From Candidatus Zipacnadia bacterium (lineage in GTDB: Bacteria; Armatimonadota; Zipacnadia; Zipacnadales; UBA5352): DNA of 38,577 nucleotides. Shown in pieces: positions 13,462 through 24,734 of the stretch. The position numbers were made by a program, and so were the translations under genes. The DNA lies in NCBI GenBank assembly GCA_029821265.1, contig JALGTR010000005.1, positions 1 to 38,577 on the forward strand, in the 5' to 3' direction. The notes beneath the pieces were generated by a model, which was given only the letters and a program-made list of their open reading frames with translations, made no database searches and was not told the origin of the DNA. Positions within the stretch are counted from its first letter, which is position 1; each line of letters begins with the position of its first letter.

Positions 13462-14241
13462 CTACGGTCGCAGCTCTCGCACCTTCGCCTCCACGCGCTG
13501 CGGGAGATCCTCGCCGCCCTGCGCGATGACATTGACGACCGCGGATCCGACGACCGCTCCGTCGGCGATCTCAAGCACCTCGGACACCTGCCGGGCCGTC
13601 GAGAGGCCGAAGCCGACCGCGACCGGCACCTCTGCGCGCTGTTTGACGCGCTCGACCAGCGCCTGCAGGCCCTCGTAGATGTCCTCCCGGGCACCCGTGA
13701 CGCCGGGTCGGGAGATGACGTAGACGAACCCCGTGGTGGCCTCGATCGCGCGTTCGATATGCTCATCAGTGTTGCCCGGCGCCACCAGTTGGACGGTCCC
13801 CAGGCCGGCCTCGCTGGCGATGCGGGTCCACTCCTCGGCCTCGCGCGCGGGCAGGTCGCTGACGAGCACGCCGTCGACGCCAGCCGCCACGGCATCGCCC
13901 GCGAAGTCCTGCATCCCGTAGGCGAGGATCGGGTTGAAGCAGGTCATCAGCACGAGCGGGATCTCGGAGCGCTCGCGGATTCGGGCCGCGGCCTGCAGGA
14001 CCATGCGGGGGGTGGTCCCCGCGTCCAGCGCGCGCTTGCACGCGGCCTGGATGGTTGGACCATCGGCGGTCGGCGCCGCGAAGGGGATGCCCAGCTCGAT
14101 GATATCCGCGCCGCCGCGCTCGGCTGCGAGGACTATCTGCTCGGTGGACTCAGGGCTCGGGTCGCCCGCGGTGACGTAGATGATGAGGGCCCCGGGGCCG
14201 CTGGCGTTCGCGCGTTCGAATGCCTGATGTATACGCTCCAT
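13462..14241 (-). CDS. trpA: Tryptophan synthase alpha chain
   Basis: MERIHQAFERANASGPGALIIYVTAGDPSPESTEQIVLAAERGGADIIELGIPFAAPTADGPTIQAA; YVISRPGVTGAR. Confidence 0.95.
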   Translation of the reverse strand: MERIHQAFERANASGPGALIIYVTAGDPSPESTEQIVLAAERGGADIIELGIPFAAPTADGPTIQAACKRALDAGTTPRMVLQAAARIRERSEIPLVLMTCFNPILAYGMQDFAGDAVAAGVDGVLVSDLPAREAEEWTRIASEAGLGTVQLVAPGNTDEHIERAIEATTGFVYVISRPGVTGAREDIYEGLQALVERVKQRAEVPVAVGFGLSTARQVSEVLEIADGAVVGSAVVNVIAQGGEDLPQRVEAKVRELRP

Positions 14242-14252
14242 GGTCGTGGCGG

Positions 14253-15437
14253 CTACTCGGTTAGCCGCTGCACCTCCTCACAGTCCTTGTCGCCGCGTCC
14301 TGAGATGTTGATGATGACGAGGTCATCGTCGGTCAGCTCGTCGGCCATCGCCAGCACCTGGGCGACGGCGTGGGCGCTCTCGAGGGCGGGGATGATCCCC
14401 TCGAGCTCGGTCAGCGTGCGGAATGCCTCGAGCGCCTGCTCGTCGGTGACGGCGACGTAGCGGCCGCGGCCGGAGTCGTGGAAATCCGCGTGCTGGGGGC
14501 CGACGGCGGGGTAGTCGAGGCCGGCTGCCACTGAGTGGGCGGGGAGGACCTGGCCGTCCTCGTCCTGGATAACGTAGGTGGCCGCGCCGTCGAGCACGCC
14601 GAAGGTTCCGGCGCAGATGCTGGCGGAGTGCTGTCCGGGCTGCAGCCCAAGACCCGCCGCCTCAACGCCGATCAGCTCCACGTCGTCCTCGAGGAACGCG
14701 TAGAACAGCCCGATGGCGTTCGAGCCGCCTCCGACGCAGGCCACGAGCTTCGTCGGGAGACGACCCTCGGCGTCGAGGATCTGCCGTCGAGCCTCGTCGC
14801 CGATGACGCGCTGGAAATCGCGCACCATGGTCGGATACGGGTGCGGGCCGGCGACCGACCCGAAGACGTAGAGCGTCTCCTCATACTGTCCCATCCACGC
14901 GCGCATGGCCTCGTCGCAGGCGTCCTTGAGTGTGCCGGAGGTCCCCTCGACGGGGATCACTTCGGCGCCGAGCAGGCGCATGCGGTAGACGTTCAGGCGC
15001 TGGCGGCGAACGTCCTCGACGCCCATGTAGACCTGGCATGGAAGCCCGAGCAGCGCAGCGACGGTTGCCGTGGCGACGCCGTGCTGGCCCGCGCCCGTCT
15101 CGGCCATGATGCGCCTCTTGCCCATGCGCTTTGCCAGCAAGCCCTGGCCGATGGTGTTGTTGATTTTATGCGCACCGGTGTGATTGAGGTCCTCGCGCTT
15201 GAGGTAGACCTTCGCGCCAACGCGCTCGCTTAGCCGTGGGGCCGGATACAGCGGGCTCGGGCGGCCGACGTAGTCGCGCAGCAGCCTGTGGTACTCTTCG
15301 TTGAACTCGGGGTCATCGCGCGCATCAAGAAACGCCGCCTCCAGCTCGTCCAGCGCGCTGAGAAGCGTCGCGGGCACGTATTGCCCCCCGAAGCGCCCGA
15401 AATACCCGGGGCGGCTTGTAGTCGCGTCGTGTGCCAT
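14253..15437 (-). CDS. trpB: Tryptophan synthase beta chain
   Basis: [86 protein letters not shown]. Confidence 0.97.
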
Positions 15438-15519
15438 CGATCTTCGTCCTTTCGGTCGGTCATGGTGCAGTTCACGTGCAAGGATACATTACTCGCGACG
15501 GGTGCGTGAAGTCGCGGCT

Positions 15520-16329
15520 TCAGCGCCGCCAGCGCTTCACCCTGACGCCGGTGAGCCGACGCAGGGCCCTCCCGGGGCTGGCCGCGCGCATCAGTGTGGT
15601 GCCGACGAGCACGGCGTTCGCACCGGCCTCGGCGAGGCGCCGCACATCTGCACGGGAGTTGACGCCGCTCTCGGCCACGAGAATCCGCTCGTCCGGGATG
15701 GCCTCGGCGAGGCGCTCGGTGGTCGCGAGATCGACGTTGAAGGTGTGCAGGTCGCGGTTGTTGACTCCGATGATGCGCGCGGGGGTCTGCAGCGCCGAGT
15801 GGACCTCCTCGCGCGTGTGGGTCTCCACGAGCGCTGACATGCCGAGATCGCGCGTGAGCGCCAGCAGATCGTGCAGGATCGTCGGCTCGAGCACCGCGAC
15901 GATGAGCAGGATCGCGTCGGCGCCGGCCGCCCGCGCCTCATAGATCTGCCACGGCTCGAGCACGAAGTCCTTGCGCAGGACCGGTATCTGCACTGTGCGG
16001 CGAGCCTGCCGCAGGAACTCGAGGCGGCCGGCGAAGAATCGCTCGTCGGTGAGCACGCTCAGCGCCGCCGCTCCGCTGTGCTCGTAGCCGCGCGCGATCG
16101 CGGCCGGATCGAAGTCCGCCGGGCGGATACTGCCCGCAGAGGGGCTCGCGCGCTTGATCTCGGCGATGATGCGCACATCATCGCCGCGCAGCGCGGCGGC
16201 GAAGTCGCGCGCAGGTGGCGCATCCTCCGCCTCTTTGCGGATCTCCGCGAGCGGCGTCGCGGCCCTGCGCGCGGCGAGCTCCTCGCGCTTGTGAGCGATG
16301 ATCTCCCGCAACACGTTGGGAATGCTCAC
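15520..16329 (-). CDS. trpC: Indole-3-glycerol-phosphate synthase
   Basis: VRIIAEIKRASPSAGSIRPADFDPAAIARGYEHSGAAALSVLTDERFFAG; IIGVNNRDLHTFNVDL; ILVAESGVNSRADVRRL. Confidence 0.96.
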   Translation of the reverse strand: MSIPNVLREIIAHKREELAARRAATPLAEIRKEAEDAPPARDFAAALRGDDVRIIAEIKRASPSAGSIRPADFDPAAIARGYEHSGAAALSVLTDERFFAGRLEFLRQARRTVQIPVLRKDFVLEPWQIYEARAAGADAILLIVAVLEPTILHDLLALTRDLGMSALVETHTREEVHSALQTPARIIGVNNRDLHTFNVDLATTERLAEAIPDERILVAESGVNSRADVRRLAEAGANAVLVGTTLMRAASPGRALRRLTGVRVKRWRR

Positions 16330-17366
16330 TGCACCCGCGCCCCAGCGAGCGTGTTGGTCATCGCGCAGAGGTCTTCGAGCTTGCGCGTCACGGCGCCCGA
16401 CTCGATGGTCTCGCGCGCGATCTCGATGCCCTCGCCAAGTGTGTTGGCGAGGCCGCCGACGTATATCGCCGCGGCGGCGTTGAGCACGGTGATATCGGTG
16501 GTCGCGCCGCCGTCGCCCGCGATCGCACGCTGTAGGATCTCGGCCGACTGCTCGGGGTCGCCGCCAGCGATCTCCTCAATCGTCGCGCGTCGCAGACCGA
16601 ACGACTCCGGGGTGACCTCGTAGGTTCGTACCCGTCCATCGCGCAGCTCTGACACGCGCGTAGGGCCGACGGTGGACAGCTCGTCCATGCCGTCGAGCCC
16701 GTGGACGACCATCGCGTGTATCGATCCCAGTTCGCCGAGAGTCCTGGCCAGGACCTCGGTCAGCTCGGGCGCGAAGACGCCGAGGAGTTGCCGACGCGCG
16801 CCGGCGGGGTTGGTGAGGGGACCGAGCACGTTGAAGACCGTTCGCAGGCCCAGTTCGCGGCGCGGGCCGATGGCGTGCTTCATCGCCGGATGCAGGCTCG
16901 GCGCGAAGAGGAAGCCGATCATCAGCTCATCGATGCAGGTTTCGACCTCGAAGGGTTCAAGGTCGATACGGACGCCCAGCGCCTGCAGCACATCGGCGCT
17001 CCCGCAGGTGCTGGAAACCGAGCGATTTCCGTGTTTCGCGACCGGGACGCCCGCGGCTGCGGTCACCAGCGCGGCGGCGGTCGAGACGTTGAACGTGTCC
17101 AGTGCATCGCCGCCGGTGCCGCAGGTGTCCACCACATCCGCGTGCCTGGTGTTGATGCGCACGCAGTTTTCGCGCATGGCCTGGGCGAAGCCGGAGATCT
17201 GATCGACGGTCTCACCTCGCATCCTCAGAGCGACGAGAAAGGCGCCGATCTGCGCATGGGTGCAGTCTCCGCTCATGATTGCGGCCATCGCCGCCTGGGC
17301 CTCGGAACGATCGACAGGCAGTCCGTCCACGACCTTCGCTATCGTCTCGTTGATCATCACAGTCAC
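16326..17366 (-). CDS. trpD: Anthranilate phosphoribosyltransferase
   Basis: VVDTCGTGGDALDTFNVSTAAALVTAAAGVPVAKHGNRSVSSTCGSADVLQALG; ATGA-type overlap with trpC. Start may be 17357. Confidence 0.96.
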   Translation of the reverse strand: MTVMINETIAKVVDGLPVDRSEAQAAMAAIMSGDCTHAQIGAFLVALRMRGETVDQISGFAQAMRENCVRINTRHADVVDTCGTGGDALDTFNVSTAAALVTAAAGVPVAKHGNRSVSSTCGSADVLQALGVRIDLEPFEVETCIDELMIGFLFAPSLHPAMKHAIGPRRELGLRTVFNVLGPLTNPAGARRQLLGVFAPELTEVLARTLGELGSIHAMVVHGLDGMDELSTVGPTRVSELRDGRVRTYEVTPESFGLRRATIEEIAGGDPEQSAEILQRAIAGDGGATTDITVLNAAAAIYVGGLANTLGEGIEIARETIESGAVTRKLEDLCAMTNTLAGARVQ

Positions 17367-17401
17367 CTCGTGCGTGAGTGTGAAAACGTTGGCTGCGAGC
17401 G

Positions 17402-17989
17402 CTACACGCGCACCGCGCCGGTGGCAGCAAGCTCGAGGAAGTTGCGCAAGAGCCGCTTGCCCGGCGCGGTCATGATCGACTCGGGGTGAAACTGCACGCC
17501 CTCGACGACGAACTCGCGATGTCGCGCGGCCATGATCTCGTCCTGGTCGCTCAGCGCCGAGACCTCGAGGCAGTCCGGCACGCTGGGCGGATCGATGACC
17601 AGGGAGTGGTAGCGGACAGCATCGAACGGGTTCTCGATCCCGTCGAAGATGGTCCTCCCGTCATGGTTGATCGGCGAGGTCTTGCCGTGCATCAGCCGGG
17701 GAGCGCGGACGATATCGCCGCCGAAGACCTGGCCCATACACTGATGCCCGAGGCAGACCCCGAGGATCGGGATCTCGCCGGCAAAGCGCTCGATCGTCTC
17801 ACAGGAGACGCCGGCCTCGTTGGGCGTGCATGGGCCAGGGGAGATGACGATGCTGTCGGGTCGCATCCGGGCGATCTCCTCGGTGGTGATTCGGTCATTG
17901 CGCACCACCTCGACCGTCTCGCCCAGCTCGGAGAGGTACTGATAGAGGTTGTATGTGAACGAATCGTAATTGTCGATCAGCAGGACCAT
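17402..17989 (-). CDS. trpG: Anthranilate synthase component II (glutamine amidotransferase)
   Basis: MVLLIDNYDSFTYNLYQYLSELGE; SPGPCTPNEAGVS; GVCLGHQCMGQ; GVQFHPESI. Confidence 0.95.
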   Translation of the reverse strand: MVLLIDNYDSFTYNLYQYLSELGETVEVVRNDRITTEEIARMRPDSIVISPGPCTPNEAGVSCETIERFAGEIPILGVCLGHQCMGQVFGGDIVRAPRLMHGKTSPINHDGRTIFDGIENPFDAVRYHSLVIDPPSVPDCLEVSALSDQDEIMAARHREFVVEGVQFHPESIMTAPGKRLLRNFLELAATGAVRV

Positions 17990-18050
17990 TGGTAGGCCTC
18001 CTCTTGCGCGTCTGCAAAGTGGCGCACGGGGCAGCGCTCGGGTGGAACTG

Positions 18051-19556
18051 CTACCTCAGCCCCGCCTCGGCCATGCGCGCCGCGTCGAGCATGGCCCCGG
18101 CCTTCATCAGCGTCTCCTGATACTCCGCGTCCGGGTCCGAATCCGCGACGATGCCGCCCCCGGCCTGGAAGTGCACCGTGCGGCCTTTCACGACCATCGT
18201 GCGCAGGGTGATGCACGTGTCCATTGCGCCCGAGAAGCTGAAGTATCCGACGACGCCCGCGTAGGGCCCGCGGTGGACCGGCTCGAGCTCCTCGATGATC
18301 TCCATGGCGCGGATCTTCGGGGCGCCGGAGACCGTTCCGGCCGGGAATGACGCGCGCAGGACATCGTACTGGTCCCTGCCCTCGGCCAGTCGGCCGACGA
18401 CGTTCGAGACGATGTGCATCACATGCGAGTAGCGCTCGACCTTCATCAGCTCATCCACCTCCACCGTGCCCGGTTCGCAGACCCGCCCGATGTCGTTGCG
18501 ATGCAGGTCCACGAGCATGATGTGCTCGGCGCGCTCCTTTTCGTCCGCGAGCAGCTCCTCCTCGAGCGCCCGGTCCTCGCTCTCGGACTCGCCCCGCCTG
18601 CGCGTGCCGGCGATCGGCCGGGTGACGACCTCGCCGTCCTCGCAGCGCACCAGCAGCTCGGGCGAGGCGCCGATGATCTTCGCGTCGCCGAAGCTCAGGT
18701 AGTACATGTACGGGGAGGGGTTGACCGCGCGCAGGCCGCGGTAGAGGTCGAATGGATCGACGTCCAGCTCCGCTGACATGCGGTGGGAGAGGACCACCTG
18801 GATGACGTCGCCAGCCGCGATATACTCCTTGGCCTTGAGCACCGCCTCGCGATGCTGTTCGCGGGTCATCGTCGAACGCATCGCGGTGGCGTCGGAGGGG
18901 ATACGCGCGAACGCGCTGTTGCCGTCCTCGTGTCGCTGCAGAGGCTGCTTGAGCGCGTCGACGAGCCGGTCGATGCGCTCGATGGCCTCCCAGTAGGCCT
19001 CCTGTGGGTCCCCCGTAACGTGCGCGTTGGCGACCACGCGCATCTTCCGCGTCACGTGATCGAAGATGATCAGCGTGTCAGTGATCATGAAGTGCGCGTC
19101 CGGGAGCTGAAGGTCATCGGGCTTTTCGCAGGGGATGTCCTCGAAGAATCGTACCGCGTCGTAGCCGAGGTAGCCGACGGCGCCGCCGTAGAAGCGATCG
19201 CCCTTGTCAACCGGGACGAACTGATAGCGCTCGAGCATCCCGCGGATGAGGTCGAGAGGATCCTCGCCGTCCTCGAGCTGCCGGGTGCGGGAGGAGCCGT
19301 TCTCGCCGATGGTCGCAGTGCGTCCCCTGGTTGAGATGATCTCGAGCGGGTCGAAGCCGAGGTAGGAGTAGCGCGCGATCTGTTCGCCGCCGGCGACCGA
19401 CTCGAGCAAGAACGCGTTCCTGTCGCCGCCAGTGTGCCGGAGCTTCATGAACGCGGAGACGGGCGTGTCGGTATCGGCGACGAACTCGCGGTAGACGGGG
19501 ATGAGGTTGCCCTCGTCGGCCTTCTTCACGAACTCGTAGAGTGTTGGAGTGTACAT
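18051..19556 (-). CDS. trpE: Anthranilate synthase component I
   Basis: VVLSHRMSAELDVDPFDLYRGLRAVNPSPYMYYLSFGDAKIIGASPELLVR; PIAGTRRRGESESEDRALEEELLADEKERAEHIMLVDLHRNDIGRV; SFPAGTVSGAPKIRAME. Confidence 0.96.
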   Translation of the reverse strand: MYTPTLYEFVKKADEGNLIPVYREFVADTDTPVSAFMKLRHTGGDRNAFLLESVAGGEQIARYSYLGFDPLEIISTRGRTATIGENGSSRTRQLEDGEDPLDLIRGMLERYQFVPVDKGDRFYGGAVGYLGYDAVRFFEDIPCEKPDDLQLPDAHFMITDTLIIFDHVTRKMRVVANAHVTGDPQEAYWEAIERIDRLVDALKQPLQRHEDGNSAFARIPSDATAMRSTMTREQHREAVLKAKEYIAAGDVIQVVLSHRMSAELDVDPFDLYRGLRAVNPSPYMYYLSFGDAKIIGASPELLVRCEDGEVVTRPIAGTRRRGESESEDRALEEELLADEKERAEHIMLVDLHRNDIGRVCEPGTVEVDELMKVERYSHVMHIVSNVVGRLAEGRDQYDVLRASFPAGTVSGAPKIRAMEIIEELEPVHRGPYAGVVGYFSFSGAMDTCITLRTMVVKGRTVHFQAGGGIVADSDPDAEYQETLMKAGAMLDAARMAEAGLR

Positions 19557-19684
19557 TGGTCGAACCTCCGGTCTGTGAGATGGGATGCTGCCTCAATTCG
19601 CATCTCGCCGCCGGGGCTCAGGTGGTGCACCGGACTCTCAGGTACTGCATTGCCGGGTGCGGGTCGCTGCGTGGTGCGGTACCG

Positions 19685-19723
19685 AAAAAACCGCGGCGGC
19701 TTCAGTTTGATGAAGCCCCGCGG
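19685..19723 (-). terminator. Intrinsic terminator (attenuator) in the trpE leader
   Basis: On the minus strand: ccgcgg-ggcttca-tcaaac-tgaagcc-g-ccgcgg-tttttt. 13-bp stem with one bulged base, followed by T6 (+ strand A6 at 19685-19690); about 130 nt upstream of trpE. Confidence 0.85.
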
Positions 19724-19868
19724 CTGGCAGGGGGAAGGGGTCTGTTTTCTTCTACACAGTGAGGCGCCGGATCGTGGCCTCAGTACACTGCGAGAGCCGC
19801 GGGGGGGTTTCGCGAGCCGCCCGCGGCCTGGTTCTTTCCGGCTTTCCTGTTGCAGCGCGAACCAGACG

Positions 19869-19940
19869 CTAAGCGACTCGCAGTCGCCAGCGCCAGGCCC
19901 AGAGACAAACCGCCGAATGTCTGCAACAGTCAGTATTCAT
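19869..19940 (-). CDS. trpL: Candidate trp leader peptide MNTDCCRHSAVCLWAWRWRLRVA
   Basis: Minus-strand ATG (19940-19938) to TAG (19871-19869), 23 codons plus stop. Trp codons at 19901-19899, 19895-19893 and 19889-19887; located between a promoter-like element and the intrinsic terminator. Confidence 0.7.
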   Translation of the reverse strand: MNTDCCRHSAVCLWAWRWRLRVA

Positions 19941-19954
19941 GGTTATTGTGCGAA

Positions 19955-19983
19955 ACAGTAGCAGAAGCCGAGGGGGCTGTCAA
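19955..19983 (-). promoter_or_regulatory. Candidate trp operon promoter (TTGACA-N17-TACTGT, TGC extended -10)
   Basis: Minus-strand TTGACA (+ 19978-19983), 17-nt spacer, TACTGT (+ 19955-19960) preceded by TGC. Confidence 0.65.
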
Positions 19984-20717: not shown

Positions 20718-23700
20718 TTACCCCTCGTCCCCGTCGGTTTGATCCCCGGTCGGGCGCTGTTGCTCAGCGCCGGGGTCCTCCGCCGCGTCATCGGGCTCAT
20801 CGGTCCCGGGGTGCTGATCGAGCAGCGGCACCGTCTCGACCGTGACATTGCCGGCCGCATCGCGCGCGCGCACCTTCAGCTCCGTCTCCTCGACCGGGAT
20901 CTGCGGCAGGCTGATCGTGAACAGCTCCTCGCGGGCGTCCAGCAACCCGTCGCGCACAGGCGCGGCGCGCCACCGCTGCTCACTGCCGAACGTCCAGTCG
21001 ATCGACGTGAGATGGCTCAGCTCATCCGTGGCGAGTCCACGCAGCTCAAGCAGGTCATCACCGCGGCGCGGCGTGGACATGATCTTTACCTGAGGGTATC
21101 CGTTATCGACGATCACTCTCCGGACGATGACCTCCTCGGTCGCCGCACCGATCGGGTTGCTCGGCTCGTCGCTGATCACCAGGCGCAGGTCGTAAACGCC
21201 GTCCTCGACGTCCTCGGTGTTCCACTTCCAGGAATCCTCGCCCTGCACGGTTTTGAGCTCCGTCCACTCCTCCTCGCCGGCTGCGCGAGAGGAGATCGTC
21301 ACGGCGAGCGTGTCATCGTCGTCGTCCTCGGCATCCCACTTGAGCTCGAACTCCCCGCGGATGGACTCGCCGGCGTGCGGCGCCTTCACCTCCAGCGTCG
21401 GCCTGCGGTTGCGCGGCAGGTAGCTTACGGCGATCCGTGTCAGCTCCGGACCTGCAGCGCAGGTTCCGGCCATGCGCAGTCGATACTGAAGGTAGCGCGC
21501 GGCAGGTGCCTGCAGCCGTTCGCCGGGCGTCGTCAGGGCGCGGGTCCAGCCGCTCCAGCTGCCATCATCCGGGACTCGGGAGTTGCCCGAGCGCGCGTCC
21601 ACCTCCAGTGTCGCCGTGCCAGGCAGTTGTGCGTCCCAGTCAACGCGCGCCCAGCGGCTGACGCGCTCGGCGTCGAGGGCCTCTGAGGCGTAGCTGCCCT
21701 TCGCAGGCGCGGTCGGCTGCAGGCGCCACAGCCGCACGGGGTTGCTCGCCGCGGCGAAGACGGAATCGGCGCCGGCAGAGATCGCCGTGATCCGCGCCGA
21801 GACCTCATCCCGGGCCGCCACGGCGGTGCGTGCCTTCTCATCGACCGCTACGATCTGCCCGTCGCTGGCGGTGGCGACCCAGGCCATCCTCGAGGCGAAT
21901 GCGACGCCAAGCGCGTCGTCGTCCGCCTTCCAGGCCTCGGTGGCGTCGCCATCGGCATCAACGATGAAGACCCTGCCATCCTCGGCCGTCGTGACCACGA
22001 GGCGGCCGAGGTCATCAAGCGCCAGTCCGGTGATCGCGTCCTCCTCGCACCCGAACACGCTGCGCGCGTGGCCCTCGGGGTTGATCGCGAAGACGACGCC
22101 CTGGTCGTCGCCGACGCCCGCGTAGAGCGTGTCGCCCGCCGACAGGAGGTCGAGGACGTGACGTCCGGAGAGCTGCGCGAACAACTGCGCCTCATCCTCC
22201 AGCGCGTAGATCCGGCCCTCGGTGCCCGTGCCCGCCAGGACACGTCCCGCATGGCTCTCGAGCGACCAGACGTAGTCCTCGGGCAACTGCCATTCGCGCA
22301 GGATGGCGCCATCGGCGCTGAGGTGCAACACACGGCCGTCGGGGCCGGTGCCAGCCCAGATCCCACCCGAGCCGTCAGGCAGGAGGCTCAGTACCAGCGC
22401 GCTGCCGATGTCGGCGACCGTCTCCACGCCCTCGCCGGGCCGCCAGCGGTAGATCCGCCCGGGATTGCCGACGGCCAGCCAGCAGGCATCGCCGTCAGCG
22501 GCGATCGCCCACGCGATCGAGGCGTCGATCTGCGCGACCATCTCGGCGGGCGGAGCGAGGATCACCGCGCCATCGCTGCGGACCATTGTGCCGTCGGTCT
22601 CGCCCTCCTCGAAGTCGTCGGCATCGGTGTGCAGGAAGCTGCTGAGGCCGCGGGCCAGTGCCTCGCCATCGGGCTCAGGATGCTCGCGTGTGTCGTCATC
22701 CTCGTCCGCCTCGTCCTCGTCCTCGTCGTCATCACCGTCGATCTTCGGCTCAGGCGCCGGCTCTTCGTCCTTCGGCTCGAGCTCAGGCGTGGGCAGGTCG
22801 GCGTTCTGCATCGGGCGGGCGTCGGTCTGCAGTGAGTCCATCGCCCACCACAGATGCGGGAGTCTGTCCATCGCCGACGCAAAGGTGGTGCTCTCCTCCT
22901 CCGCGTCCGGCCTCCCTGTGACCTTTCCGCGCTCGCCGAGGCGATTCTCGGTCGGAAGGTTCGCAATCTGCCAGCCGAAGAGGAAGTACTCGGTGTCGAA
23001 TGTCTCGCTCAGTTCACGGTAGCCCGCGACCACATCGCTGCTGGTGTCCTCGGCGATGAGCTTCGAGGCCTGCACCGGAAGCCCGACCAGTTGGGTGCCG
23101 TCGAGGCCCAGCGCCACCTCCGGGATTGCGGCTGCGACGTACAGCTGGTTGCCGCGCTTCATCTCCGCCACCAGCTTCGCGAGGTCCTCGAGGCTGTCGA
23201 TCTGCGGCATCAGCAGGCGCAGGAAGGCGCGCAGGCTGTACTCCTCGGTCCCGGACGCCGCTCCAACCCGGAGCTGGCCCTTCGGCAGGTCCTCGGGCAG
23301 GTCGAAGCGCACCACGCGCTCGAACTCCTCGCCGCCCTCGGGTCGCATGACGACGTGGACCGTGAGCTGCTCGCCGGCGCGCGCGACGTGTTCCTCGACG
23401 TAGACCCGCTCGATCGCGGCGATCTTCTCATCGTCGGAGAGGGTCACGCGGGCGGTCAGCGAGGCCGGCTGCTGGGGAGAGAAGCGGTTCTGGGTCAGGT
23501 AGTAGAGAGCCTCCTCGACCCAGCTCACAACGGGGATGACTGAGCCCGGGTGGTAGACAACATCCTCGCGCGTGATCACCGCGCCCCCGTCGCCCTCCAG
23601 CTCGAACGCCAGGGTACCCACGCCGTCGCTGCCGGGATTGCAGGTCGCCTCGACGGCAGAGAGCATCGACGTCATCAGCAGCCCGGGCGTCACCATCTCG

Positions 23701-24734
23701 TGGCTGGCGGCGCGCACGTTGAAGGTGCGGGTCAGGTTCCGGTCCTCGCTGGTTACTGTGATCCGCGCGGGCACCATAGGCGCGTCCTCGCCCAGCTCAC
23801 AGCCGACCGACCACGCCCCGTCACGCAGCAGGGCTCCCACGGTCCTCATCGGGGAGGAGAGCTTGTTCGATCGGCTGATGCTGGGGAGAAAGTCATGGAT
23901 CCATGCCGTCGTGATCGGCAGACGCACCTGCCCCATCTTCATCATCGGATGGCCGAAGGCCAGGATCTCATCGCCGTCGCGCCAGGTGAGTGTGCCAACC
24001 GTGGAGATATCGAAGTCCCCCTCGAGGAGCTGCACACCCAGCGCCGAGCCGGGCTGAAGCTCGACCTCCGGCCCGTCGGAGAGGCGCCCGGGGCCCGGGA
24101 TCGCCTCGAGTCCGTAGGGCTCGACCATCTCCCGCAGCCGCTGCATCGCAGCGTCTCCGAGGCCCGCCGCGTTAATCACCGGATTGACCGGCGCAAGGTT
24201 GATGGTGCGTTCGTCGGCGAATGCGGGGCCATCGGGATCGATGCGGGCGCGATCGATCCAGCGTCCGCACAGTTGCGCGCCGCGCAGAGGATGGTCATCG
24301 GGCAGCGAGGCCTGCTCGGTCCCGGCGGCCGAGTCGAGCATCGCGCGGATCGGGGTAACGCCGCCGATCGCCTCGCGCAGGAAGCCCCAGCCGTAGGCGA
24401 TCGCGCCGACGAGCCTGCCTCCCACGTAGATCGGGCTGCCGCTCATGCCGCCGATGATGCCGGATTCGCGCTCGACCACCGGCCCGGAGGTGACCCTGAT
24501 GAGGATCAGGTCCTCACCGAGGTTGGCCTTTTTCAGGACGCCGAGGATCTCCACGTCGAAGCGGGTGATCTCCGTCCCGGAGAAGACGCTCAGACCGTAG
24601 CCGGTCATTCCGCGCGAAAGCTCGGAGGAGTCCATCATGGTGGCGGGGTCAAAGCGCGATGAGGTCGGCTGGGCAACGGCAACAGCCGCCACCGCGACGA
24701 TGGCGAGCGCGGCGAGGGGGGCTTTCAGGCGCAT
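20718..24734 (-). CDS. Large secreted protein: SpoIVB/S55 peptidase-like domain, acidic linker, propeller-like repeats, C-terminal beta domain
   Basis: Signal peptide MRLKAPLAALAIVAVAAVAVAQ; S55-like GIIGGMSGSPIYVGGRLVGAIAYGWGF; acidic linker DGDDDEDEDEADEDDD; repeats such as GSGGIWAGTGPDGRVLHLSADG and AGRVLAGTGTEGRIYALED. Confidence 0.8.
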   Translation of the reverse strand: MRLKAPLAALAIVAVAAVAVAQPTSSRFDPATMMDSSELSRGMTGYGLSVFSGTEITRFDVEILGVLKKANLGEDLILIRVTSGPVVERESGIIGGMSGSPIYVGGRLVGAIAYGWGFLREAIGGVTPIRAMLDSAAGTEQASLPDDHPLRGAQLCGRWIDRARIDPDGPAFADERTINLAPVNPVINAAGLGDAAMQRLREMVEPYGLEAIPGPGRLSDGPEVELQPGSALGVQLLEGDFDISTVGTLTWRDGDEILAFGHPMMKMGQVRLPITTAWIHDFLPSISRSNKLSSPMRTVGALLRDGAWSVGCELGEDAPMVPARITVTSEDRNLTRTFNVRAASHEMVTPGLLMTSMLSAVEATCNPGSDGVGTLAFELEGDGGAVITREDVVYHPGSVIPVVSWVEEALYYLTQNRFSPQQPASLTARVTLSDDEKIAAIERVYVEEHVARAGEQLTVHVVMRPEGGEEFERVVRFDLPEDLPKGQLRVGAASGTEEYSLRAFLRLLMPQIDSLEDLAKLVAEMKRGNQLYVAAAIPEVALGLDGTQLVGLPVQASKLIAEDTSSDVVAGYRELSETFDTEYFLFGWQIANLPTENRLGERGKVTGRPDAEEESTTFASAMDRLPHLWWAMDSLQTDARPMQNADLPTPELEPKDEEPAPEPKIDGDDDEDEDEADEDDDTREHPEPDGEALARGLSSFLHTDADDFEEGETDGTMVRSDGAVILAPPAEMVAQIDASIAWAIAADGDACWLAVGNPGRIYRWRPGEGVETVADIGSALVLSLLPDGSGGIWAGTGPDGRVLHLSADGAILREWQLPEDYVWSLESHAGRVLAGTGTEGRIYALEDEAQLFAQLSGRHVLDLLSAGDTLYAGVGDDQGVVFAINPEGHARSVFGCEEDAITGLALDDLGRLVVTTAEDGRVFIVDADGDATEAWKADDDALGVAFASRMAWVATASDGQIVAVDEKARTAVAARDEVSARITAISAGADSVFAAASNPVRLWRLQPTAPAKGSYASEALDAERVSRWARVDWDAQLPGTATLEVDARSGNSRVPDDGSWSGWTRALTTPGERLQAPAARYLQYRLRMAGTCAAGPELTRIAVSYLPRNRRPTLEVKAPHAGESIRGEFELKWDAEDDDDDTLAVTISSRAAGEEEWTELKTVQGEDSWKWNTEDVEDGVYDLRLVISDEPSNPIGAATEEVIVRRVIVDNGYPQVKIMSTPRRGDDLLELRGLATDELSHLTSIDWTFGSEQRWRAAPVRDGLLDAREELFTISLPQIPVEETELKVRARDAAGNVTVETVPLLDQHPGTDEPDDAAEDPGAEQQRPTGDQTDGDEG

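Follow-up and report, generated by a model that had tools for sequence, protein, structure and literature searches.

A candidate tryptophan leader peptide and a predicted his-type relay of RNA hairpins upstream of the trp operon of a Candidatus Zipacnadia bacterium

The window, that is, the whole stretch of 38,577 nt that was analysed, encodes on its minus strand a tryptophan biosynthesis operon with the gene order trpE-G-D-C-B-A. trpE (18051–19556, TIGR00564 match) is followed by trpG, trpD, trpC, trpB and trpA (13462–17989). trpF is absent from the operon (13462–19556), and the sole PRAI match in the genome is partial and lies on another contig (G000:C249:5443-5634, L175). On the other side of the leader, a 1338-aa ORF (20718–24734) without an NCBIfam match carries GIIGGMSGSPIY, which we take to resemble SpoIVB-type (S55) peptidases. 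Upstream of trpE, a short minus-strand ORF, trpL (19869–19940), encodes MNTDCCRHSAVCLWAWRWRLRVA. It starts with an ATG at 19940–19938, ends with a TAG at 19871–19869 and has three TGG codons (19901–19899, 19895–19893 and 19889–19887) in the arrangement TGG-GCC-TGG-CGC-TGG (W-A-W-R-W, 19887–19901), which are the putative regulatory codons. A −35 element, TTGACA (19978–19983), and a −10 element, TACTGT (19955–19960), are separated by a 17-nt spacer; CTTGAC is invariant and TAnnnT is kept in all 10 members of the family. The consensus promoter scan has no entry for this promoter because its −10 matches at only three of six positions. The ATG lies 14 nt past the −10 and the transcript therefore has almost no 5′UTR, which from this position would be only ~6–8 nt long and lack a Shine-Dalgarno (SD) sequence for the leader ORF. 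Between trpL and trpE lies an intrinsic terminator, with a stem at 19725–19691 (19725–19711 against the segment called 6 below) followed by TTTTTT (19690–19685), and its 5′ arm starts 144 nt after the last base of the stop codon. The SD of trpE (GGAGG, 19569–19565) is held in a predicted hairpin, GCCCCGG...CCGGAGG (19565–19617), the position of which is conserved in eight family members.

A preliminary description of this DNA had already reported the ORF with its three TGG codons, which matches base for base, together with a promoter-like element just upstream and a terminator ~145 nt past the ORF, both of which are present as given above. Its reading of the ORF as a candidate trp leader peptide is supported by the Trp clusters of relatives, by a shuffle test and by the trp operon downstream. 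It did not cover the RNA part, in which a long antiterminator helix and the middle hairpins may form a relay.

The source is an uncultured bacterium of the phylum Armatimonadota, and by TrpE its closest named relative is Candidatus Zipacnadia (70%). We compared the region with relatives found by whole-genome search, which returned 9 further family members and 31 additional genomes from elsewhere in the order. In all 10 family members the ORF begins with ATG, contains three or four Trp codons and closes with a stop in the same frame, and gaps within it occur only in multiples of three. The preliminary description had proposed as a check that relatives should conserve start codon, spaced TGG codons and stop against drifting flanks, and the family passes it. 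The Trp motif is WAWRW in nine family members and WGWWW in L088; other families of the order have WCW, WAWCW, WGWRW (f4), WWWRW (f6), WWCWRK (f5) or WFSWWYWF (f3), and wider relatives have WWWR or WWWW leaders. The interspersed arrangement that the preliminary description had pointed out, W-x-W-x-W, is a trait of the family, as leaders with tandem WWW(R) are found in other parts of the phylum. In distant families the Trp cluster is retained while the rest of the peptide differs. The motifs thus vary between families while the cluster persists, and on these alignments it is therefore the Trp content that is kept and not one fixed RNA sequence. Similar Trp leaders are also carried by records from outside the phylum (L070, L072 and L076).

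The chance expectation was derived from dinucleotide shuffles, using as rule an ATG-initiated ORF upstream of trpE with at least three Trp in six codons. None of 2,000 shuffles of the 700 nt before the trpE of the window produced such an ORF. Such an ORF is present in 23 of the 36 trpE upstream regions of the order (0.12 expected from shuffles) and in 9 of 31 in the wider class and phylum (0.10 expected). About one-third of the upstream regions of the order fail the rule, among them regions with two Trp (WCW) and others on short contigs, and many of the genomes compared are incomplete. The Trp cluster of trpL did not arise by chance, and the short ORF is very probably, judging from its sequence and position, a tryptophan-sensing leader peptide ahead of the Trp synthesis genes. 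One genome of f4 with 8% contamination (G032) carries an additional trpE 5′ end whose leader is of the f3 type (L116); this is probably a stray contig.

Family alignment revealed conserved blocks past the stop codon, and downstream of the Trp codons two alternative sets of pairings are predicted between six segments: 1:2, 3:4 and 5:6, the last being the terminator with its U6 tract, or 2:3 together with 4:5. Hairpin 1:2 (19858–19901), a putative pause and protector hairpin, has its 5′ arm on the Trp codons. Segment 2, GCGAGTCGCTTAGCGTCTGGTTC (19859–19881), comprises the end of the ORF, the stop codon and CTGGTTC; segment 3 is GAACCAGGCCGCGGGCGGCTCGC (19812–19834); segment 4, CCCCGCGGCT (19795–19804), can pair with 3 or with 5; segment 5, AGCCGCGGGG (19716–19725), is the 5′ arm of the terminator and a partner of 4 or 6; and segment 6, TGAAGCCGCCGCGG (19704–19691), forms with the U6 tract the stretch 19685–19704. 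The alignments behind the following values were cut by hand from few sequences that are related to each other. The 2:3 helix consists of 22 pairs with two bulges, and across 8 distinct sequences 95.9% of its cells are paired, with three pairs changed on both sides; sliding the partner lowers pairing to ~40%. Pairing is likewise retained in 93.6% of cells for 3:4, with compensatory changes, in 95.5% for 4:5 and in 92.0% for 5:6, each of the latter two with three pairs changed on both sides. One position of segment 5 is A in the window but G in its relatives, and the window carries a U opposite this A in segment 4 as well as in segment 6. The idea that 4:5 arises because terminators in this genome all look alike was ruled out, as only 0.1% of pairs among the other terminator-like hairpins of this genome reach its duplex energy. 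Conserved GGGCGGCTCGC, considered as a T-box TGGN motif, is instead accounted for by its place in the 2:3 helix, of which it forms the distal part. Within the leader ORF, CTGTTGCAG (19921–19929) is complementary to CTGCAACAG past segment 2 (19847–19855), and this complementarity is mostly kept in the main group of the family; the pairing may be why CCR/CCS is conserved in the peptide and may close the structure formed when no ribosome is present.

The effect of ribosome position was predicted by folding transcripts that end before segment 6, with the bases masked up to a ribosome on a chosen codon, the edge of the ribosome being a chosen value. With the mask extending to the last UGG, the window is predicted to form 2:3 (~14 pairs) and 4:5, and with the mask extending to the stop codon it is predicted to form 3:4; moving the ribosome from the last UGG to the stop codon reduces 4:5 from 11.7 to 2.5 pairs and brings 3:4 up to 8.8. 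Opposite structures for the two positions are seen in 8 of the 10 family members, the exceptions being L083 and L088, in which 4:5 is predicted even with the ribosome at the stop codon. Shuffling segment 2 of the window removes 2:3 and shuffling segment 5 removes 4:5 (0 of 60 shuffles attain the value of the window in either case), while 3 of 60 segment 2 shuffles match its switch amplitude; in most family members, shuffling either segment abolishes the switch. Both states recur on unrelated sequences in families f4 and f3. The last-Trp mask yields them in L090, L098 and L097, and only the first-Trp mask does so in L089, L108 and L115, and most f4 cases require the ribosome to be placed at the first Trp codon; the exceptions are L099, which forms 3:4 in both masked states, and L093, in which the stop-codon mask leads to 4:5. 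In equilibrium folds extended through segment 6, the terminator frequently prevails even if the mask places the ribosome at the last Trp codon (5:6 at 14.2 pairs in the window), and the switch must therefore rely on the order of folding during transcription. Folding the complete leader at equilibrium fails to show the switch in some cases and is not a clean test of it.

From sequence comparison and predicted folding, we consider it likely that this region is a ribosome-mediated transcription attenuator of the trpEGDCBA operon. The locus combines a short ORF with clustered codons for the product of the operon, mutually exclusive antiterminator and terminator structures past the ORF (by prediction and covariation) and an intrinsic terminator before the first structural gene, the U tract of which is poor in 3 of 10 relatives (L082, L084 and L112). 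In the model that we propose, translation, stalling, timing and termination are the steps that we infer. A ribosome would initiate on the leader ORF very close to the transcript's 5′ end. Under a shortage of Trp-tRNA, it would stall on the UGG codons and leave segment 2 (the tail of the ORF, the stop codon and CUGGUUC) free to pair with segment 3, thereby releasing segment 4, which would capture segment 5 before segment 6 is transcribed. The 4:5 helix would block the 5:6 terminator, and RNA polymerase would proceed into trpE. When Trp-tRNA is plentiful, the ribosome would reach the stop codon and cover segment 2, so that 3:4 would form at once, segment 5 would pair with 6 and transcription would end at the U6 tract. 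If the leader is not translated, hairpin 1:2 would take over the blocking role.

The history of the hairpins bears on an alternative that we regard as unlikely, a plain four-segment trp attenuator in which 1:2, 2:3 and the terminator suffice, 3:4 is a tandem terminator copy that has decayed and the duplication gave rise to 4:5 as a by-product. Hairpins 3:4 and 5:6 are indeed alike in sequence, tandem duplicated palindromes automatically cross-pair, and in deeper members (L087, L088, L089 and L108) hairpin 3:4 has its own U tract, so that two tandem terminators are present there. In the window, however, 2:3 touches neither segment 5 nor segment 6, and without 4:5 no signal from the ribosome would therefore arrive at the only terminator with a U tract. 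The retained pairing of 4:5 (95.5%, with its three double-sided changes) also speaks against a by-product, as does L097, where 4:5 (GTCGGCCCGC:GTGGGCCGAC) uses bases beyond the second terminator stem. In the main group of the family, 3:4 has lost its U tract and, in the relay model, would serve there purely as a relay. A single terminator is present in families f5 and f6. Of 15 further leaders examined, 14 have a hairpin with a T tract 50–100 nt past their stop codon.

The hairpin over the trpE SD could add a second level of control. Segment 6, freed under starvation, would also pair with this SD-hiding hairpin, so that the stalled ribosome would control both termination and trpE translation, and in the three relatives whose U tract is lost (L082, L084 and L112) the relay would be a purely translational trp switch; we think this rather improbable. 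Coupling of segment 6 to the SD hairpin (6:7) was considered and set aside, being unsupported in the folds of most family members. That control is mainly translational, with an upstream switch freeing or hiding the SD and termination having a minor part, appears quite improbable. The SD hairpin is predicted in most family members, 5:6 is without a U tract in those three relatives, and segment 6 (GCCGCCG) could pair with CGGCGGC of the SD hairpin, as it did in two folds, but in most folds the SD stays closed in both states and the U tract is clear in the window and most relatives. It is very improbable that the TGG codons are conserved just for pairing in hairpin 1:2, with the ORF neither translated nor sensed: the Trp codons do sit in the 5′ arm of this hairpin, but other families keep Trp clusters despite unrelated sequence and structure, and gaps in the ORF preserve the frame. 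A T-box, a TRAP site or another RNA regulator is scarcely credible, as T-box-like RNAs occur elsewhere in the genome but no Rfam family lies at the site and neither TRAP nor TrpR was found.

The searches behind this last point were as follows. Rfam models gave nothing credible at the trpL site at gathering or permissive thresholds. The Trp_leader covariance model RF00513 had no match at the site or in the genome, while the E. coli control matched, and the T-box model RF00230 had no match at the trp leader. Five T-box-like RNAs were detected elsewhere in the genome (L151–L154), the best at 84.8 bits and all below the gathering score; T-boxes probably serve other genes of this organism and not trp. 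The TRAP protein (PF02081) was not found in the genome, which is 92.6% complete, and TrpR was found neither in this genome nor in 41 genomes of the order.

The E. coli trp attenuator (trpL, RF00513) shares with this locus a leader ORF with Trp codons, the logic of 1:2, 2:3 and terminator and the position upstream of trpE. The window differs from it in its interspersed Trp codons, the missing RF00513 match, a long antiterminator helix that includes the stop codon, an additional hairpin pair between 2:3 and the terminator, and a genome in which no TrpR was found. The predicted topology is instead that of the enterobacterial his attenuator, with the same six-segment relay and an extra hairpin between pause hairpin and terminator, although the codons are for Trp and not His and the phylum is different. 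For his, Johnston et al. (1980) reportedly described six segments, A–F, with A:B, C:D and E:F set against B:C and D:E. The equivalent alternatives (1:2, 3:4 and 5:6 against 2:3 and 4:5) are predicted here, with L083, L088, L099 and L093 as exceptions. The extra hairpin of the his attenuator lies between pause hairpin and terminator and, in a model paper, serves to cut basal readthrough, E. coli trp managing without it because TrpR shuts the operon off (PMC1183508). The attenuator proposed here has the extra hairpin in an order with no TrpR found, which makes this argument testable by comparison.

Actinobacterial trp attenuators (PMC1262725) also have a Trp leader ORF, an antiterminator and a GC-rich terminator before trp genes, but in that description, unlike in the window, the UGG codons form double or triple repeats, the hairpins are classical and there is no relay. 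According to a 2010 survey, leader-peptide attenuators had been known only from Proteobacteria and Actinobacteria, to which it added Firmicutes (PMC2965389), and our search of the open-access literature turned up no account of trp leader peptides from Armatimonadota. Ribosome-mediated attenuation as such is known; what is new, in our model, is the his-type topology on a trp operon in a genome where no TrpR was found. Two tandem terminators following a Trp leader ORF were also observed in two genomes labelled Deltaproteobacteria/Desulfobacteria (L072 and L076). Two f3 leaders (L098 and L099) have a further conserved stretch past their tandem terminators and ahead of trpE; it contains an SD-like GGAGGTGATAAC as well as a small ORF beginning MAAGTVDTMQSGACPRCSW.
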